Source: Streptosporangiaceae bacterium NEAU-GS5 (GTDB lineage Bacteria > Actinomycetota > Actinomycetes > Streptosporangiales > Streptosporangiaceae). From it: a stretch of 64,000 bases of DNA. The stretch is taken from assembly GCA_017592665.1 (NCBI GenBank), contig JAGFNW010000041.1, positions 1-64,000 of the forward strand, read 5' to 3'. Below, one piece after another: positions 4,702 to 14,329 of this stretch. Made by a program: the position numbers and the translations under genes. The notes beneath the pieces were generated by a model, which saw only the letters and a program-made list of their open reading frames with translations, did no database searches and was not told the DNA's origin. The stretch's first letter is position 1; each line of letters starts with the position of its first letter.

Positions 4702-5054
4702 GCGACGCCGAATGGCTTGATGAAGAGGCGGGGCCGGTCGTCCCCGCGTACGCGCTGACCCAGGGCCGGGTCCATCCGTACAGCAAAGAGATCGACCTGG
4801 TGGCGATCGTGGTCGCCGCCGCGGGCCTCACGCCGTCCAACCTGACGCCTGAGCAGTGGGTCATCCTCAACCTGTGCACGCGCGCGACGTCGCTGGCCGA
4901 CATCGCGGCCGGGATCGACCTGCCCGTGGGCGTGGTCCGGGTCCTGGTGGGCGACCTGCACGAGCAGGGTCTGGTGAAGGTACGGCCACCCGCCGAGGCG
5001 GCGGAGCGGATGACCGTACTCAACGAGGTGCTGAACGGACTGCGCGCGCTTTAG
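4698..5054 (+). CDS. DUF742 protein (CvnC-like)
   Basis: 118 aa, matching the usual CvnC length. The sequence runs from VVPAYALTQGRV through a winged-helix-like region (LADIAAGIDLPVGVVRVLVGDL) to VLNEVLNGLRAL, which is typical of DUF742. In conservons this protein is membrane-proximal and works with the kinase and a GTPase. The ATG overlaps the kinase stop (ATGA), so the two are translationally coupled. Its stop overlaps by 4 bases the stop of the convergent lipoprotein gene, leaving no room for a roadblock or GTPase gene. It probably acts as an output or DNA-binding partner of the kinase (inference). Confidence 0.85.
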   Translation: MSDAEWLDEEAGPVVPAYALTQGRVHPYSKEIDLVAIVVAAAGLTPSNLTPEQWVILNLCTRATSLADIAAGIDLPVGVVRVLVGDLHEQGLVKVRPPAEAAERMTVLNEVLNGLRAL

Positions 5055-6631
5055 GCGGCGGGTTTGAGGTCGTAGACGAAGACCACGTTCGGATAGGCCG
5101 GGTTGTCCACGTACCCCTGCACCTTGCTGCTCAGCGCGCGCTGGTAGTTCTGGACGTACGGCACGGCCACCGCGGCCTGGTCGTCGATGATCTCGCGCTG
5201 CAGGGTGCCGTACGCGTCCTGCGCTTTCGTGGTGTCGGTTGCCGATAGTTCGGGCAGGCCGTCGATCTCCTTGTCGATCGCGGCGTCCTTCAGATACGAC
5301 AGGTTGAACGAGACCGGGTCGGCGCTGCGGAAGACGTTGACGAACCAGGAGAAGGCGTCGGCGTAGTCCGGATACCAGTACATGATGAAGATGTCCTGGC
5401 GCTTGTCGGACTTGCCCTTGCCCTGGTCCCACTGGGTCGTCCACTGCAGGGGCTTGGCCTCGAGCTTCACGTTGAGCTTGTCGAGCGCGCTGGTCAGCAG
5501 CGTGACCAGGACTTCCTGGTCGCTGTCGCCCTGGGCGTAGGTGAGGCTGAGGGTGAGCTTCTTGCCGTCGGGGCCGTAGCCGGCCTCCTTCAGCAGCGAC
5601 TCGGCGCCGGCGAGGTCCTGACGCGGGCGGAGCTCGGGGGTGTAGCCGAGCAGGCCCTCAGGGACCAGTCCGCTGGCCGGGACGCCGGCGCCCTTGAGCG
5701 CGGCGACCAGTCCGTCGTAGTCGATGGCCTTCTGAATGGCCTTGCGCACCTTCACGTCGACGGTGCCGGTGTTGAACAGAACGAGCAGGTTCTGGAACGA
5801 CGGCGACTGCGACGCCTGGACGCTCGGAGTGGACGCCGCCTGCGCGAACAACTGCGGATTGAGCCGTTCCACGAACGACACCTCACCACGCTGCAACAGC
5901 TGCCATGCGGTGGTCAGCTCCGGAGTGACCCGATAGGCGATTTTCGTGTAGTGAGGCCCCGCCCACCCGCCCCAATACTTGTCGTACGCCTTGAGAGTGA
6001 GCTCGGTCTCCTGCCCCTTTCGCCATGATTCGATCGTGTACGGCCCCGAGCCGCCGTCGGTCGTGCCGGCCTTGAAGTCGACGCTCGCGTCGTAGATGTA
6101 AGCGGCGTATCCGGCGGACGCGATCAGATCGAGCGGGACCGGATACTTGAGCGTGAAGACCAAAGTCGTCGGATCTTTAGCCTCGATCTTGTCGACCGCG
6201 CCCCAGATGTAGGCGGCGCCGGCGCCGGTCTTCATGGTCCGCTCGATCGACTCCTTGGCCGCGGCCGCGTCGACGGGCTTGCCCGTGTGGAAGGTGACGC
6301 CACCACGTAACGTGAAGGTCCACTGCTTGCCGTCGGAAGACTTGGTCCACGCGGTCGCCAGGCGCGGCTCCGTCTGCTTGGTCTGCGGGTTGTAGCGGGT
6401 CAGCGACTCGTAGATGTTCTCCATCGCGATGATTTCGTTGGAGTACGAACTGGCCGGGTCCCAGTCGGTGACCACGTCCAGATTAGGCACGTAAACGAAC
6501 GTACTGTCGACAGTTTTACCCGACGACGCCTGGGGTGAGGCGGCGCCGCGTACCTTGCCACCCGAGCACGCCGAGGTCAAAGCCACAGCGGCCACGGCAC
6601 CCGTCGCGACCAGACGTATATGCCATCGCAT
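5051..6631 (-). CDS. ABC-type peptide/nickel family substrate-binding lipoprotein (paralogue)
   Basis: About 526 aa. It has a signal peptide ending in LTSAC followed by a Ser/Gly-rich linker, so it is predicted to be a lipoprotein; Thr at -3 of the lipobox is slightly unusual. SBP family 5 blocks closely match the product at 1025-2620 (for example TDWDPASSYSNEI, KYPVPLDLIASAGYAAYIYD), so one gene is a duplicate of the other. The ATG at 6631 has AAAGGA about 10 bases upstream and begins a normal signal peptide; the longer frame starts with GTG and adds only MKAKGIPP. No transporter partner is present. The gene ends against the DUF742 gene. Confidence 0.88.
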   Translation of the reverse strand: MRWHIRLVATGAVAAVALTSACSGGKVRGAASPQASSGKTVDSTFVYVPNLDVVTDWDPASSYSNEIIAMENIYESLTRYNPQTKQTEPRLATAWTKSSDGKQWTFTLRGGVTFHTGKPVDAAAAKESIERTMKTGAGAAYIWGAVDKIEAKDPTTLVFTLKYPVPLDLIASAGYAAYIYDASVDFKAGTTDGGSGPYTIESWRKGQETELTLKAYDKYWGGWAGPHYTKIAYRVTPELTTAWQLLQRGEVSFVERLNPQLFAQAASTPSVQASQSPSFQNLLVLFNTGTVDVKVRKAIQKAIDYDGLVAALKGAGVPASGLVPEGLLGYTPELRPRQDLAGAESLLKEAGYGPDGKKLTLSLTYAQGDSDQEVLVTLLTSALDKLNVKLEAKPLQWTTQWDQGKGKSDKRQDIFIMYWYPDYADAFSWFVNVFRSADPVSFNLSYLKDAAIDKEIDGLPELSATDTTKAQDAYGTLQREIIDDQAAVAVPYVQNYQRALSSKVQGYVDNPAYPNVVFVYDLKPAA

Positions 6632-6710
6632 TGGGGGGATTCCTTTCGCTTTCACATTTCGATCCTAGGTTTCTAGCATTTATCGAAATACGGGGAAAGA
6701 GCTGGATACC

Positions 6711-7841
6711 GTGTGCGCCATGACCTCCCCTTTTGACGTCACCTGCCCGCAGATCGGGATGGAGGAGGAGTACCTGGTCGTCGACCCGGACTCCAGAGAG
6801 GTGGTCCCCCGGGCCACAGATGTGGTGGAGCGGGCCGCGGCGGCCCTCGGGGCCGAACACGTGGGCACCGAGATCACCAAGTTCCAGGTCGAGGCCCGGA
6901 CACCGCCCTGCACATCCATCGAAGACCTGGAAGGCCACGTCCGTCGCATGCGCGCCGCCGTCGTCTCCGCCGCGCTCGAGGAAGGCCTGGCCGTGGTGGC
7001 CTCGGGCACACCCGTCCTCGGCGACGTCGTCCCGCCCCCCATCCAGGATCATCCCCGCTACGGCATCGGCATCGCCACCTACCGCTCACTCCATGACGAA
7101 CAGGCCATCTGCGCCGCGCACGTCCACGTCCACCTGCCCGACCGCGACAAGGCCGTGCTGGTCGGCAACCACCTGCGGCCGTGGCTGCCCGTGCTGATCG
7201 CGATGACGGCCAACTCGCCCATGTGGGCCGGGCGCGACACCGGCTACGCCAGCTGGCGCACGCTGACCTGGGGCAAGTGGCCCGTGGCCGGGCCGCCGCC
7301 CTACTTCGCCTCCCGGGCCGAATACGACGCGCTTGTGGCCGCCCTGTCCGCGGCCAAGGTGCTGGTCGACCCCGGCACGATCTTCTGGGACGTACGGCCC
7401 TCGGCCCGGCTGCCCACGCTCGAAGTGCGCGGCAGCGACGTGCCGGCCACCGCCGAGGACTCGGCGCTGCTGGCCGCCATGGTGCGCGCTCTGGTCGTGG
7501 TCGCCCTCGGCAAGGTCTCGGACGGCGATCCCGGGCCTCAGCTGTCGCCTGCGCTGCTCCGGGCGGCGTACTGGCAGGCGGCACGCGACGGCCTCACGGG
7601 AGACGGCATCGACCCGCTCACGGGCGACCTCGTGCCCGCCGCCGATCTGGCGAAGCGGATGCTGCGCGAGGCCTCCCCCGGCCTGGCCGGCGCCGGCGAT
7701 CTGGAACTGGCGACGGCGCGGCTGGACCGGCTCCTCGCCGACGGCACGGGGGCCGACCGCCAGAGAGCCGTCCTGGACAGGCGAGGGCGGCTCTCCGACG
7801 TCGTGGATCACCTCATCGAGGTCATGGCAGGCGCTCGGTGA
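6711..7841 (+). CDS. YbdK-type carboxylate-amine ligase (GCS2 family)
   Basis: 376 aa from GTG 6711; ATG at 6720 is an equally good start, and the ribosome site (GGGGAAAG) is poor for both. Family marks are GMEEEYLVVD near the N-terminus, ITKFQVEARTPP, HVHVHLPD in the metal/ATP-binding strand, and WDVRPSARLPTLEVRGSDVP. These place it with glutamate-cysteine ligase-type 2 enzymes, which join the carboxylate of Glu to an amine using ATP. YbdK homologues have weak gamma-glutamylcysteine ligase activity, and the physiological substrate is usually unknown. Single gene; its end is embedded in a short repeat shared with the convergent neighbour. Confidence 0.9.
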   Translation: MCAMTSPFDVTCPQIGMEEEYLVVDPDSREVVPRATDVVERAAAALGAEHVGTEITKFQVEARTPPCTSIEDLEGHVRRMRAAVVSAALEEGLAVVASGTPVLGDVVPPPIQDHPRYGIGIATYRSLHDEQAICAAHVHVHLPDRDKAVLVGNHLRPWLPVLIAMTANSPMWAGRDTGYASWRTLTWGKWPVAGPPPYFASRAEYDALVAALSAAKVLVDPGTIFWDVRPSARLPTLEVRGSDVPATAEDSALLAAMVRALVVVALGKVSDGDPGPQLSPALLRAAYWQAARDGLTGDGIDPLTGDLVPAADLAKRMLREASPGLAGAGDLELATARLDRLLADGTGADRQRAVLDRRGRLSDVVDHLIEVMAGAR

Positions 7842-7908
7842 GGCTTACGGCAGGTGCCCGACGAGTCATGGCGGGCTCGGCGAGGCTTATGGCAGGTGCT
7901 CGATGAGG
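7824..7908. repeat. Imperfect short repeat spanning two convergent gene ends
   Basis: The motif ATGGCAGG(C/T)GCTCG(G/A)TGAGG occurs at 7824 and 7890, with two partial versions between them (GGCAGGTGCCCGACGAG and ATGGCGGGCTCGGCGAGGCTTA). The outer copies encode the C-terminus of the ligase on the plus strand and of the flavoprotein on the minus strand. It looks like a local tandem duplication of about 20-40 bases. Confidence 0.7.
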
Positions 7909-9431
7909 AATGCCTTCAGCGGCGCCACGTGCCGTTCCTGATCCCGCCAGGTGGCCAGCAGGTCTTCGAGCAGGTGGCGTTCCGCGACCAGATCGCGGTA
8001 ACGCCACTTGCGGATGACCGGGTGGAGGAATGCGCTTTCCTGGGCCACCTCGGGGCGGGGGTGACGCTGGATGGCGAAAATGTCGCCGTAGTCTTGCCTG
8101 CCCCAGCGGAGCGTCAGTGTGAAGTAGTGCTCCTGATCGGCGAACCGTTCGTTCGCGTAGTCCTCGGGCAGGTCCGTGTAGCGCAGGATCTGCCCGTGGT
8201 CGACCACGTAGACATCCGATAAATACTCGAATTGGGTCCACAGGGCCGAGCTCCAGTTCGCTCGGTCCAGCATGGTTTCGGTCAGCCCATCCGGGTCGGC
8301 CGCGACCACTTCGTGATCGAGCGTGGCCTTGTCGTACCGTTCGGTGAGCAGTCGCGCCATCGTCCGCAGGTTGTAGCGGAAACCGTCGATGAAGGCCGAC
8401 GACGCCCGCTTCAGATCGCGGATCTGCATGAGCGTGCCGGCGAAATAGAGGCCGTCGACGTTGACGGACTGCCAGTCAGGCCCGAGCGCGGGAAGCCGGT
8501 CGTTCCTCGTGAGCTCCGGCATGCACGACCGGTCGAACACGGATGTGTCGATGCGGAAACCCGTGCACCGGATCACCGTGTCGTAGTCGAGAATCGCCTT
8601 CTCGCCCTCGGCGAGGGTGTAAGTGATCTCGGCCTTGAGCCGGTCGCCCTCGCGCCAGATCCGGTCGATGTCGCATTCCAGGACCCCGTGGAGGGTCTTG
8701 AACCAGTAGCTGTCGAGGAACGCGCCGTACATGCCGCGCACGTCTCCCGGGTGCTTGCTGTTCCACGACAGTCGTACGCCATGGGGGCTCGCCAGGTGAA
8801 TGACGGCCGCGTGGCCGAGCAGCGCCTGGGCCGTCTCGAACGCCGAGTTGCCCTTGCCGATGACCAGCACCCGCTGATCGGCGAAATCCTCCCCCGTCGT
8901 CGGCACGTCCTCGTAGCCGACGGCCAGCTCGATCCCCGGGATTTCAGGAATGTACGGCGCGCCCCAACCGGCCGCGACGATCACGCACTCGGCTTTGAGC
9001 GTGCCTGCCCGGGTGTGGACGGTGAAGGTGCCGTCGTCCTGCTTGGCGATGCGCTCCACCGCGGTGTCGTAGTGGACGTTGAGATCGTGCGCCCGCTGGA
9101 AGTCGTCGAGATAGCGCGCCATCTCGTCGGCGTGCGGGAAGTACTCCTTCGTGTAGCGGGGGAACTGTAATTGCGGGTCGTCGTTGAGCAGCGAGTTCCA
9201 GTCCCAGCGCAGGGTGATCTCGGGATCGTCCTGGCCCGTGTGGACCTTGTTGAGCGAGATCAGCCGACGGTGGCGCGGATAGCGCTGGAAGAACCCGCCC
9301 GGGCTCGACCCCCTTTCCAGAGTGACGTAGTCGGCCTCAAGCTTCTGCAGGAAGTAGCTGAGTTGAAGGCCGGCCGGCCCGGAGCCGACGATGAGATAGC
9401 GGTACGCGCGGTCGTCCGAAAGCGCCCGCAT
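7887..9431 (-). CDS. FAD-dependent oxidoreductase, FOXRED2-like / flavin monooxygenase-like
   Basis: 514 aa. The FAD site GSGPAG lies near residue 17, followed by a short FxxRYPRH segment. A second nucleotide site, GKGNSAFETAQALLG near residue 190, fits NAD(P)H binding. The later YFAGTLMQIRDLKRASSAFIDGFRYN matches the C-terminal half of FOXRED2/FMO-like proteins. The cytosolic enzyme probably uses NAD(P)H and FAD to oxidise a small molecule. Bacterial members are uncharacterised, and eukaryotic FOXRED2 acts in ER quality control, so the name conveys similarity only. There is no strong ribosome site before the ATG (GGTGGCAGCCTG). The nearest same-strand gene, upstream, is the AhpD-like protein. 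Confidence 0.85.
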   Translation of the reverse strand: MRALSDDRAYRYLIVGSGPAGLQLSYFLQKLEADYVTLERGSSPGGFFQRYPRHRRLISLNKVHTGQDDPEITLRWDWNSLLNDDPQLQFPRYTKEYFPHADEMARYLDDFQRAHDLNVHYDTAVERIAKQDDGTFTVHTRAGTLKAECVIVAAGWGAPYIPEIPGIELAVGYEDVPTTGEDFADQRVLVIGKGNSAFETAQALLGHAAVIHLASPHGVRLSWNSKHPGDVRGMYGAFLDSYWFKTLHGVLECDIDRIWREGDRLKAEITYTLAEGEKAILDYDTVIRCTGFRIDTSVFDRSCMPELTRNDRLPALGPDWQSVNVDGLYFAGTLMQIRDLKRASSAFIDGFRYNLRTMARLLTERYDKATLDHEVVAADPDGLTETMLDRANWSSALWTQFEYLSDVYVVDHGQILRYTDLPEDYANERFADQEHYFTLTLRWGRQDYGDIFAIQRHPRPEVAQESAFLHPVIRKWRYRDLVAERHLLEDLLATWRDQERHVAPLKAFLIEHLP

Positions 9432-11039: not shown

Positions 11040-11500
11040 TCAGCCGGTGAACCCATGCGCCCGTAGCCGGCCGGCGATCCCGTCGACTCCGCACGTGGCC
11101 GCCCAACCCGGGTGAAGGTCGACGAGGGCGCTGAGCATCCGCGAACGGCCCTCGGTCACCTCCTAGATGCGCCGCATAGACAGAGGCGCTTTCCGGGGTG
11201 GCTGTGCGGCCCTTCTTGGAAGAGACCCTCGTCAGAAACAGCAACGCCCGCGTCCCGGCAGGAACCGCGCGCCCGAAGTCGGCGACCGTCCGAACCGGCT
11301 CGCCCGCCCCGGCCAGCACGCCGCCCTGATACAGCTCGACATAGACGACCTGCGCCGACCGCCCTTTGAACCGGTCCTCCACCCGAACCGCCATCAGCAC
11401 ACGCCGGGCGTCGCGGCCGTACGCCGCTCCTGCCGGAATGACGTGCGTGCCTGCGGTTCGCGGCCTTTCCTGCCCTACGCGGGCCGGCGCATATCGTCGG
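11040..11500 (-). pseudogene. Frameshifted hypothetical gene
   Basis: Two protein-like segments occur in different minus-strand frames. The upstream part reads VEDRFKGRSAQVVYVELYQG, PVRTVADFGRAVPAGTRALL and SSKKGRTATPESASVY. The downstream part reads EVTEGRSRMLSALVDLHPGW and GIAGRLRAHGFTG before a TGA at 11042-11040. They would join near 11165 if one frame change were removed. The open frame that continues past that point turns into Arg/Pro-rich shadow sequence. The family is not recognised. A sequencing error or a real inactivating shift would both explain it. Confidence 0.45.
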
Positions 11501-11553
11501 CGTATCGGAAACCACATACGTGCTGGCAACGCCACATCCCCTTGCCTTGAGGC

Positions 11554-12198
11554 ATGAACGACAGCGAACCAGCACGAACATCGATCCTTCGGATTCTCCG
11601 GCTCCTTGTCGTCGGCCTGCTGGTCGTCATCGCGGCGATCGCCGCATCCCTCGGCTTCCAGTTGCTGGCGTCCTCGTCCTCGACCGCCGCGTCACCCATC
11701 GACCTCCCTCGAAGTGAGCAGCGCAGCGAGCAGCATGGTGCGCTCGGCGAGGCGGACGGAGCGGTCCCCGACGGCGTGACGGTCTTTGATGACGAGATTC
11801 CAGGTGTGGCGAACCTGGATCCAGCTCTCCTCGGCGCCCTGCGCCAGGCTGCGACGGATGCGGCGGCCGACGGCGTCGAATTCCAGGTGAACAGTGGCTG
11901 GCGGTCCCCGGCGTACCAGAATCAGCTTCTTCGTGAGGCGGTTTCCAAATACGGATCCGAAGAGGAAGCCGCCAAGTGGGTGGCCACCGCGGAGACCTCC
12001 GCCCACGTGAAAGGGGACGCGGTCGACATAGGGCCGGTCGATGCCGCGGCGTGGCTGTCCAAGCACGGCGCCGACTACGGCCTGTGCCAGATCTACGGCA
12101 ACGAATCCTGGCACTACGAACTGCGCCCCGACGCCATCGACCACGGCTGCCCAGCCATGTACGACGACCCCACCCAGGATCCGAGGATGCGCCAGTGA
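11554..12198 (+). CDS. Membrane-anchored D,D-carboxypeptidase, VanY/VanXY-like (peptidase M15B)
   Basis: 214 aa. An N-terminal membrane helix (about residues 14-38) is followed by a linker and an M15B zinc peptidase domain. Visible motifs are GWRSPAYQNQLL, the zinc-site SAHVKGDAVDIG (SxHxxGxAxD), and WHYEL carrying the third ligand and catalytic Glu. Family members remove the terminal D-Ala of peptidoglycan stem peptides outside the membrane. The stop overlaps the racemase start (GTGA), and the ligase follows, giving the peptidase-racemase-ligase set known from VanC/E/G-type glycopeptide resistance. The ATG has GAGG almost touching it, so translation may be leaderless or weak. A role in housekeeping wall trimming is the alternative. 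Confidence 0.82.
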   Translation: MNDSEPARTSILRILRLLVVGLLVVIAAIAASLGFQLLASSSSTAASPIDLPRSEQRSEQHGALGEADGAVPDGVTVFDDEIPGVANLDPALLGALRQAATDAAADGVEFQVNSGWRSPAYQNQLLREAVSKYGSEEEAAKWVATAETSAHVKGDAVDIGPVDAAAWLSKHGADYGLCQIYGNESWHYELRPDAIDHGCPAMYDDPTQDPRMRQ

Positions 12199-13328
12199 CC
12201 GGCACGCTCGGCATGACCCATCCCAGATCCGTCGAGCTCGTGCCGCCCACGTTGCGGACAATTCCCGAAGCGGTGACGGCGAACATCGCGATCGCGCGGG
12301 CTCGGACCCGCTCGCGAATCATGGCAGTGGTCAAAGCAGATGGCTACGGACACGGAGCCGGCGCAATCGCACACACGGCGGTGGCCGCCGGAGCGGAATG
12401 GCTCGGCACAACAGACGTCGCGGAAGCCATAAGCCTGCGTGCGACAGGGCTCACCGTACCGATTCTGACGTGGCTGAATCCGTCTGGTGTCGACGCCGAG
12501 GCCGCCGCGATCGCCAGGATCGACATCGCGGTCGGATCTCTCGATGAACTGGAAGCACTACTCAAGCAAAACGCGTCCAGTCCCGTACGGATCCACTTGC
12601 ACATGGACACCGGCATGGCCCGAGAAGGCTGCCCGGCACATGAATGGGACGCGCTCATCCCACGCGCACGACAGGGGCAGCGGCGCGGGAAGGTCCGCGT
12701 TGTGGGCCTCATGGGTCATCTGCCATTGGCCGACCACGCCGACCCCGAGGCGAACGCGCCGGCGGTGTGGCGCATGCGGCAGGCCAGAAGAGCGGTCATA
12801 GAGGCGGGATTCGATGAGCCGCTCACCCATCTGGCCGCAACTTCAGCAACCCTGACCGACCCGGCCACTCACTTCGGAATGGTCCGCTTCGGGGCCGGGC
12901 TTGTCGGCATCGATCCATCCGAGACGGCCGAACTGCACGCCGCGTCTCGGCTGACCGCGCCGGTCGCGCACAGCGCAATCGTCAAGGCAGGTACGCCGGT
13001 CGGTTACAGCGGCACGTACGTCACCGACACGTCCACCAACCTCAGCGTTCTGCCCCTCGGATACGCCGACGGGATCCCGCGAGAGATTTCGCCGGCCGCG
13101 TTCGTGGAGATCCATGGGCGGCGCCACCTGGTGGTCGGGCGTGTCTCGATGGACCAGATCGTCATCGACACCGGCGCCGACCATGTCCCACCCGGCACGA
13201 CGGCAACCGTGTTCGGCCCGAAGGACGGCGTCACTCCGACCATCCACGACTGGGCCCGCTGGGCCGGAACCATTCCCCACACCATCGTCACAGGCATCGG
13301 ATCACGCGTGAAAAGGACGATCACATGA
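12195..13328 (+). CDS. Alanine racemase family PLP enzyme, VanT-like candidate
   Basis: 377 aa from GTG 12195, which overlaps the peptidase stop; ATG 12213 is the alternative. The PLP lysine is K47 in AVVKADGYGHG, and the catalytic Tyr of the second domain is Y271 in VGYSGTY. It converts L- to D-alanine or, if VanT-like, L- to D-serine. In the C-terminal IGSRVKR motif, Ser370 stands where Bacillus Alr has Tyr354. VanT serine racemases carry a non-Tyr residue (Asn) there, so a wider pocket is plausible. It lacks the VanT membrane domain and is cytosolic. This may be a second racemase in the genome; the housekeeping alr is not in the window. Confidence 0.88.
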   Translation: MTGTLGMTHPRSVELVPPTLRTIPEAVTANIAIARARTRSRIMAVVKADGYGHGAGAIAHTAVAAGAEWLGTTDVAEAISLRATGLTVPILTWLNPSGVDAEAAAIARIDIAVGSLDELEALLKQNASSPVRIHLHMDTGMAREGCPAHEWDALIPRARQGQRRGKVRVVGLMGHLPLADHADPEANAPAVWRMRQARRAVIEAGFDEPLTHLAATSATLTDPATHFGMVRFGAGLVGIDPSETAELHAASRLTAPVAHSAIVKAGTPVGYSGTYVTDTSTNLSVLPLGYADGIPREISPAAFVEIHGRRHLVVGRVSMDQIVIDTGADHVPPGTTATVFGPKDGVTPTIHDWARWAGTIPHTIVTGIGSRVKRTIT

Positions 13329-14329
13329 CGCACCACGTTTTGGTCATCGGCGGCGGCCAGAACGCCGAACACGACGTCTCCGTGAAAAGCGCCGCGGCCA
13401 TCGGCGAGGCACTGCGCTCCGGCGGGTTCGAGGTCAGCGCGGTCACCATCGGCCGCGACGGAATATGGACAGCCGGCCAAAGACCGCTCGGAAGAAGCGC
13501 CGCCGCCTCGCTGGCCGCTGCATTGCCCCTCCTCGAACGCGCGGATGTGGTCTTCCCCGCGATTCACGGCCCCATTGGAGAGGACGGGACGCTCGCCGCG
13601 CTGTGCGCTCTCACCCAAAAGCCGGTGGCAGGCTCCGGACTGCTGGCCGGGGCGATCGGCATGGACAAATGGGCGACCAAGGTCGTCGCCGAATCCATCG
13701 GAATACGCACCGCCCCGGGACGCCTGGTACGCGCGGCCGACATGGAAGGCATTGCCTTCGAGGCCGATGTCGTCGTCAAACCGGTCTCCGGCGGGTCCAG
13801 CTACGGCGTCACGTTGGCCCGGGACACCGTCCAACTGGACGAAGCGCTGCGCACCGCCGCTCGCTACGACGATCGGATCCTCATCGAGCACGTCGTCCAC
13901 GGCCGGGAGATCGACGTCGCCGTCCTGCGCGAGGCGGACGGCAGCCGCTGGGCGGCCCCGCCGTTGGAGATCCATTCCAGCGGACTGTTCGACACGGCCA
14001 CGAAGTACAACGGGACGGCCCGGTTCACCGTGCCGGCCCGCCTCGACAGCACCGACCGGGCGGCGCTCACACAAGCGGCGCTGGCGCTGTTCGACGCACT
14101 CGGCTGCGCCGGAGTCGCACGCGTGGACTTCTTCCTGACCGACAGCGGTCCAGTCCTCAACGAGGTCAACACGATGCCCGGCATGACAGCCGAATCCCAA
14201 GTGCCGAGAATGTTCGCGGCCGCGGGAGTGCCGTACGAGGAACTCGTCGCCCGCATGGTCGCTGCCGCATCGATCCCAACAGCCGCACCCCGCGCGGACG
14301 AACAGTTGGAATCTCTACGAAGCGCCTGA
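13325..14329 (+). CDS. D-alanine-D-X ligase (Ddl/Van ligase family) with Phe at the specificity position
   Basis: 334 aa ATP-grasp ligase. Family motifs are GGQNAEHDVSV, AIHGPIGEDGT, VVKPVSGGSSYGV, EHVVHGREIDV, and the Mg site with D268, E280 and N282 (LNEVNTMPGMT). It joins D-Ala to a second D-amino or D-hydroxy acid for peptidoglycan. Escherichia coli DdlB uses Tyr216 in GTFYDYEAKY; here the aligned segment is SGLFDTATKY with Phe222. Tyr216Phe gives DdlB depsipeptide activity, and Phe also occurs in natural D-Ala-D-Lac and D-Ala-D-Ser ligases. The ATG overlaps the racemase stop (ATGA), so all three genes are coupled. Plain D-Ala-D-Ala activity cannot be excluded. Confidence 0.9.
   Translation: MTHHVLVIGGGQNAEHDVSVKSAAAIGEALRSGGFEVSAVTIGRDGIWTAGQRPLGRSAAASLAAALPLLERADVVFPAIHGPIGEDGTLAALCALTQKPVAGSGLLAGAIGMDKWATKVVAESIGIRTAPGRLVRAADMEGIAFEADVVVKPVSGGSSYGVTLARDTVQLDEALRTAARYDDRILIEHVVHGREIDVAVLREADGSRWAAPPLEIHSSGLFDTATKYNGTARFTVPARLDSTDRAALTQAALALFDALGCAGVARVDFFLTDSGPVLNEVNTMPGMTAESQVPRMFAAAGVPYEELVARMVAAASIPTAAPRADEQLESLRSA

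Follow-up and report, generated by a model that had tools for sequence, protein, structure and literature searches.

A VanY-racemase-ligase operon of Streptosporangiaceae bacterium NEAU-GS5: a probable glycopeptide-resistance unit with a linked residue signature

Positions 1 to 64,000 of contig JAGFNW010000041.1 of Streptosporangiaceae bacterium NEAU-GS5 (assembly GCA_017592665.1; hereafter the window) carry a trio of overlapping genes that encode a VanY-like D,D-carboxypeptidase, a racemase of the alanine racemase (Alr) family and a ligase of the D-Ala-D-Ala ligase (Ddl) family. We assessed the trio inside this 64-kb window; the genome, that of a soil-type actinobacterium, measures 9.96 Mb (127 contigs, 99.4% complete). 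With a probability of about two in three, we read it as an inducible operon that supplies the effector enzymes for glycopeptide resistance of the VanC/VanE/VanG type, most likely one that produces D-Ala-D-Ser termini. An initial annotation of this DNA had proposed a van-type trio with altered D-Ala-D-X chemistry; sequence comparisons support that proposal through a linked residue signature, VanRS and VanX/XY-type partner genes in relatives, and a promoter box.

The first part of the signature lies in the racemase. At the site of Bacillus Alr (BsAlr) Tyr354, which has been reported to control racemase specificity and where VanT carries Asn (PMC3485190, the VanT residue being taken from that paper and not from an aligned VanT sequence), the racemase of the trio has His362. 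This residue aligns with Tyr361 of Streptomyces lavendulae Alr, the equivalent of BsAlr Tyr354 (PMC3485190). Ser370, which the initial annotation had placed at the Tyr354 position, aligns with a glycine of the S. lavendulae enzyme and was ruled out as the equivalent residue by this alignment. The catalytic Lys47 and Tyr271 are kept, and His136 stands where Alr has its carbamylated Lys129, a site that is His in most of the group and, across the larger clade, mostly His or Gln.

The second part lies in the ligase, which has Gln292 at the position of DdlB Leu282. VanA and VanG (the latter aligned as its PDB chain) have Arg at this position, and the sampled Ddls have Leu, Met, Val or Ala. VanC2 R322 presumably stands at the same position; our literature search found no text on VanC2 F250/R322. 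The ATP-grasp and substrate residues Glu15, Ser158, Tyr228, Arg266 and Asn282 are kept, and Lys227-Tyr228 is present, unlike in the omega loop of VanA. Phe222 had initially been equated with DdlB Tyr216 and taken as a sign of shifted specificity. It aligns instead with Tyr210, and Tyr216 is kept as Tyr228. Moreover, in a sample of 14 close housekeeping Ddls of the family, 13 have Phe at the 210 position with an intact Tyr216, so Phe222 is uninformative on specificity and was discarded as a mark. Also dropped, as references, were the RGI-predicted 'vanG/vanT' of Acetoanaerobium, which turned out to resemble ordinary Ddl and Alr, with Met at 282 and Tyr at 354.

We scored both positions in the window, in 80 loci from named genomes (one collection scan) and in 12 racemase-bearing loci from whole genomes. 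Racemases with an adjacent scorable ligase had His at the Tyr354 site in 42 of 43 cases and Asn in one, their partner ligases had Gln at the Leu282 position in 43 of 43, and stand-alone racemases had Tyr in 46 of 47 cases and Asp in one; the loci are related by descent, so these counts are not independent events. One pair (L169) was left out because its ligase side could not be scored. Three more His racemases have no ligase within 4 kb, one of them on a 3-kb contig. For the other two, whole genomes were checked. Actinomadura litoris (L099) has vanY-racemase-vanRS together and the ligase on a different contig. The locus of Actinomadura physcomitrii (L109) also reads vanY-racemase-vanRS and has the promoter box described below; a search of its whole genome for a matching ligase yielded nothing closer than a 41% Ddl. 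Asn, the VanT state, occurs in just one linked racemase, that of L121 (a Microbacteriaceae metagenome-assembled genome, racemase at 6001-7056), whose neighbours are a peptidase of the VanX/XY type and a Gln-bearing ligase.

Phylogenetic analysis placed all His/Asn racemases in one clade (support 100/97). The linked ligases formed a 27-row clade (100/99) and a second clade of six rows, both apart from VanA and VanG, which grouped together (100/99); the exact joins between the ligase clades are uncertain because of long branches. By this tree placement, the ligase lineage is separate from VanA/VanG.

An orthologous trio is present in 10 of 299 genomes of the family, the present one included, and VanR and/or VanS adjoin it, before or behind, in all nine others; in G131 (L053), VanS alone stands beside the trio and the best VanR match is at C1:3678974. 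The same signature recurs in a more distant clade, to which Lentzea, Jiangella, Nocardioides and others belong; here a VanX/XY-type M15 peptidase lies directly upstream, and downstream many of these loci have a kinase-regulator pair. Enterococcal VanT is an AT3-racemase fusion, with AT3 as its N-terminal domain (PMC9558356). An AT3-like gene follows the ligase in six Microbacterium operons and one Actinotalea operon, and an AT3 gene (PF01757) precedes the racemase in two Micromonospora loci. On the Streptomyces anthocyanicus plasmid NZ_CP109206.1 (L064), a 728-amino-acid Alr-Ddl fusion (4876-7062) is followed by an AT3 acyltransferase gene (7119-8162); this fusion bears the same His and Gln marks, and the plasmid is typed as mobilizable. 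Microbacterium halimionae (L105) has racemase-ligase-AT3 with the promoter box upstream, and neither VanY nor VanRS was detected nearby.

Neither vanR nor vanS, remnants included, was detectable in the 64-kb window. The statement that no VanRS pair is present thus holds for the window but fails for the genome, as contig C51 encodes orthologues of VanR (86-88% identical) and VanS (64%), without any trio gene. Upstream of vanY we found a motif that is conserved at this place in relatives and consists of GTATCG-like repeats with 11-bp spacing, then CATACG. The pattern had exactly two matches in the 9.96-Mb genome, with zero mismatches each, and no more when two mismatches were allowed; both sites were among the pattern's inputs, so that their matching is by construction, whereas the absence of others is not. 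The second match, C51:417745-417774, lies before vanR. A reversed-pattern control had no match in the genome. Among loci outside the derivation set, 10 of 12 close relatives had an exact match, and the motif also precedes vanY in such loci of Actinomadura and Microbacterium. We infer that the motif is a VanR box, and use the name in this putative sense. The occurrence of one rare promoter motif before both the trio and the unlinked VanR/VanS orthologues suggests VanRS control, and speaks against the constitutive expression that had been considered for want of a VanRS pair. The C51 box points towards a subtilase-family gene (L076, 9883-11244), so VanR may control this protease as well. L048 (G026) has two vanY-like genes, at about 6240-6701 and 7895-8512, each with its own VanR-box match.

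The trio does not hold the sole alr and ddl genes of the genome. Both have separate copies, as the initial annotation had proposed to check: a housekeeping alr on contig C95 and ddlA on C62, with a third Ddl on C44. Because these genes are located elsewhere, the trio is an extra set. The third Ddl-like ligase (L002, C44:120462-124073) sits between pyridoxal-phosphate aminotransferase-like and threonine-aldolase-like genes and may serve another pathway.

Open reading frame coordinates and Pfam profile matches (VanY; Ala_racemase N and C; Dala_Dala_lig N and C) confirmed the head-to-tail arrangement of the three genes (Table 1), in which vanY overlaps the racemase gene by GTGA and the racemase gene overlaps the ligase gene by ATGA. 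The membrane anchor ascribed to the peptidase was likewise borne out by hydropathy, with a single strongly hydrophobic stretch near the N-terminus (residues about 17-35). Its zinc-peptidase pattern SxHxxGxAxD...ExWH is intact (His151, His187), and its closest NCBIfam model is VanY-N, at a score of 69.9, well below the cut-off of 250 bits. VanH and VanX were not found in the trio by Pfam search.

Table 1. Coordinates of the trio, its upstream motif and the two marked codons in the window
Feature	Position	Strand	Support
VanR-box-like promoter motif ATATCGTCGGCGTATCGGAAACCACATACG (putative)	11491..11520	+	33 bp before vanY start codon
vanY-like D,D-carboxypeptidase, 214 amino acids, N-terminal membrane anchor	11554..12198	+	PF02557 3.4e-12
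VanT-like amino-acid racemase (alr family), 377 amino acids, GTG start	12195..13328	+	PF01168 + PF00842, TIGR00492
Codon of racemase His362 (VanT: Asn; Alr: Tyr)	13278..13280	+	alignments
Ddl-family ligase, 334 amino acids	13325..14329	+	PF07478 + PF01820, residue table, tree
Codon of ligase Gln292	14198..14200	+	residue table

In the mechanism that we propose, glycopeptide-sensing VanR/VanS from another contig would activate transcription through the shared VanR box. The racemase would then supply some D-amino acid other than D-Ala, most likely by converting L-Ser to D-Ser, and the ligase would join D-Ser to D-Ala; MurF would incorporate the resulting D-Ala-D-Ser. Residual D-Ala-D-Ala pentapeptides would be trimmed outside the cell by the membrane-anchored VanY. 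D-Ser is the most likely substrate by analogy with VanT and AT3; the resistance phenotype, VanR binding and glycopeptide induction are likewise what we infer for this operon.

Several observations weigh against this reading. The curated models place both enzymes as ordinary Alr and Ddl: the racemase scored 226.5 bits with TIGR00492 (alanine racemase; cut-off 168) and the ligase 255.8 bits with TIGR01205 (D-Ala-D-Ala ligase; cut-off 245.65), whereas the ligase fell far short of the cut-offs of the D-Ala-D-Ser ligase model NF000207 (198 bits, cut-off 520) or the VanG model (208 bits, cut-off 495), and the racemase stayed far under those of the VanT models (174/460 and 99/900 bits). The peptidase of the operon is a membrane-anchored VanY and not a VanXY, and the operon is therefore without a cytosolic D-Ala-D-Ala dipeptidase. 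There is no AT3 gene next to the window trio. Finally, as the racemase has His and not Asn, and the ligase Gln and not Arg, the match to VanT and VanG is one of position, not of residue.

The trio could be a VanRS-controlled booster of ordinary D-Ala-D-Ala supply, in which the extra Alr and Ddl offset the loss of D-Ala caused by VanY and help under cell-wall stress. The conserved DdlB residues Tyr216 and Ser150 of the ligase fit such a role, as they are associated with D-Ala-only ligases (PMC7691350), but VanG keeps both residues too, so they do not separate the two explanations. Furthermore, were D-Ala-D-Ala the product of the ligase, the VanX/XY dipeptidase of sister operons would create a futile cycle. 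Together with the His/Gln change, which is perfectly linked and affects two specificity positions, this dipeptidase makes D-Ala-D-Ala an unlikely product and is the strongest argument against an ordinary booster, which we consider improbable. The His and Gln residues themselves leave the substrate open, and together with the loss of Lys129 (to His or Gln) that most members of the larger clade show, they would also suit a van-like system that joins D-Ala to a D-amino acid other than D-Ser and so yields a new precursor terminus. To this we assign a somewhat smaller chance still: the AT3 gene linked in relatives points to a VanT/serine system, and one member of the lineage, L121, has Asn just as VanT does. 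Duplicate Alr/Ddl genes are also a known route to cycloserine tolerance, by titrating the drug, but a D-cycloserine tolerance set would leave VanY, VanRS, the VanX/XY partners and the VanR box unexplained, and we give it hardly any credence.

Beyond the window, there is a wider proposition, the odds of which we consider evenly balanced: that the trio belongs to a widespread actinobacterial van class that did not come from enterococcal VanG/VanT, has a matched His/Gln enzyme pair making D-Ala-D-Ser or another non-Ala terminus, comprises VanY- and VanX/XY-based operons with or without AT3, and in the present genome has its VanRS separated. Most characterised cases of D-Ala-D-Ser resistance come from enterococci and related Firmicutes. 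Were actinobacteria to have a matching lineage with an enzyme pair of its own, this would point to an environmental reservoir or to the chemistry having been invented independently. Annotation pipelines now hide such operons as 'alr' and 'ddl'; the paired His and Gln residues, along with the VanR box, offer simple sequence tests for them.

The trio, taken with the VanRS orthologues of contig C51 as its putative regulators, shares with the enterococcal VanC, VanE and VanG operons the parts of peptidase, racemase, ligase and VanRS; its ligase keeps Tyr216 like VanG, and its racemase is changed at the Tyr354 site like VanT. It differs from them in having VanY for VanXY, a racemase without the AT3 domain, His for Asn, Gln for Arg, and a separate ligase lineage. 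The VanY-N self-resistance carboxypeptidase of Nonomuraea is likewise an actinobacterial VanY and the closest NCBIfam model, but the VanY of the window sits in an operon with a racemase and a ligase. Unlike the D-Ala-D-Lac (VanHAX) operon, the trio is without VanH and VanX, and its ligase is without the VanA-type omega loop. In the passages of Andreo-Vidal et al. (2021; PMC8698665) considered here, the Micromonosporales pdx operon (PALP dehydratase-Ddl-VanX), for which altered precursor termini were suggested, also combines a Ddl-like ligase, a Van peptidase and VanRS, with a dehydratase where the trio has a racemase. For a few actinobacteria (Allonocardiopsis, Murinocardiopsis, Geodermatophilales), the same passages describe vanRSY accompanied by an alanine/aspartate racemase and Ddl, and propose D-Ala-D-Ser-like remodelling; the arrangement is therefore not new. 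The present genome is alike in gene content, but vanRS is unlinked from the trio here and adjacent to it in relatives. Those passages contain no residue signature, promoter box, or VanX/XY or AT3 partners; the present analysis adds the His/Gln signature, a regulon that is split and carries its own box, and the variants with VanX/XY or AT3.
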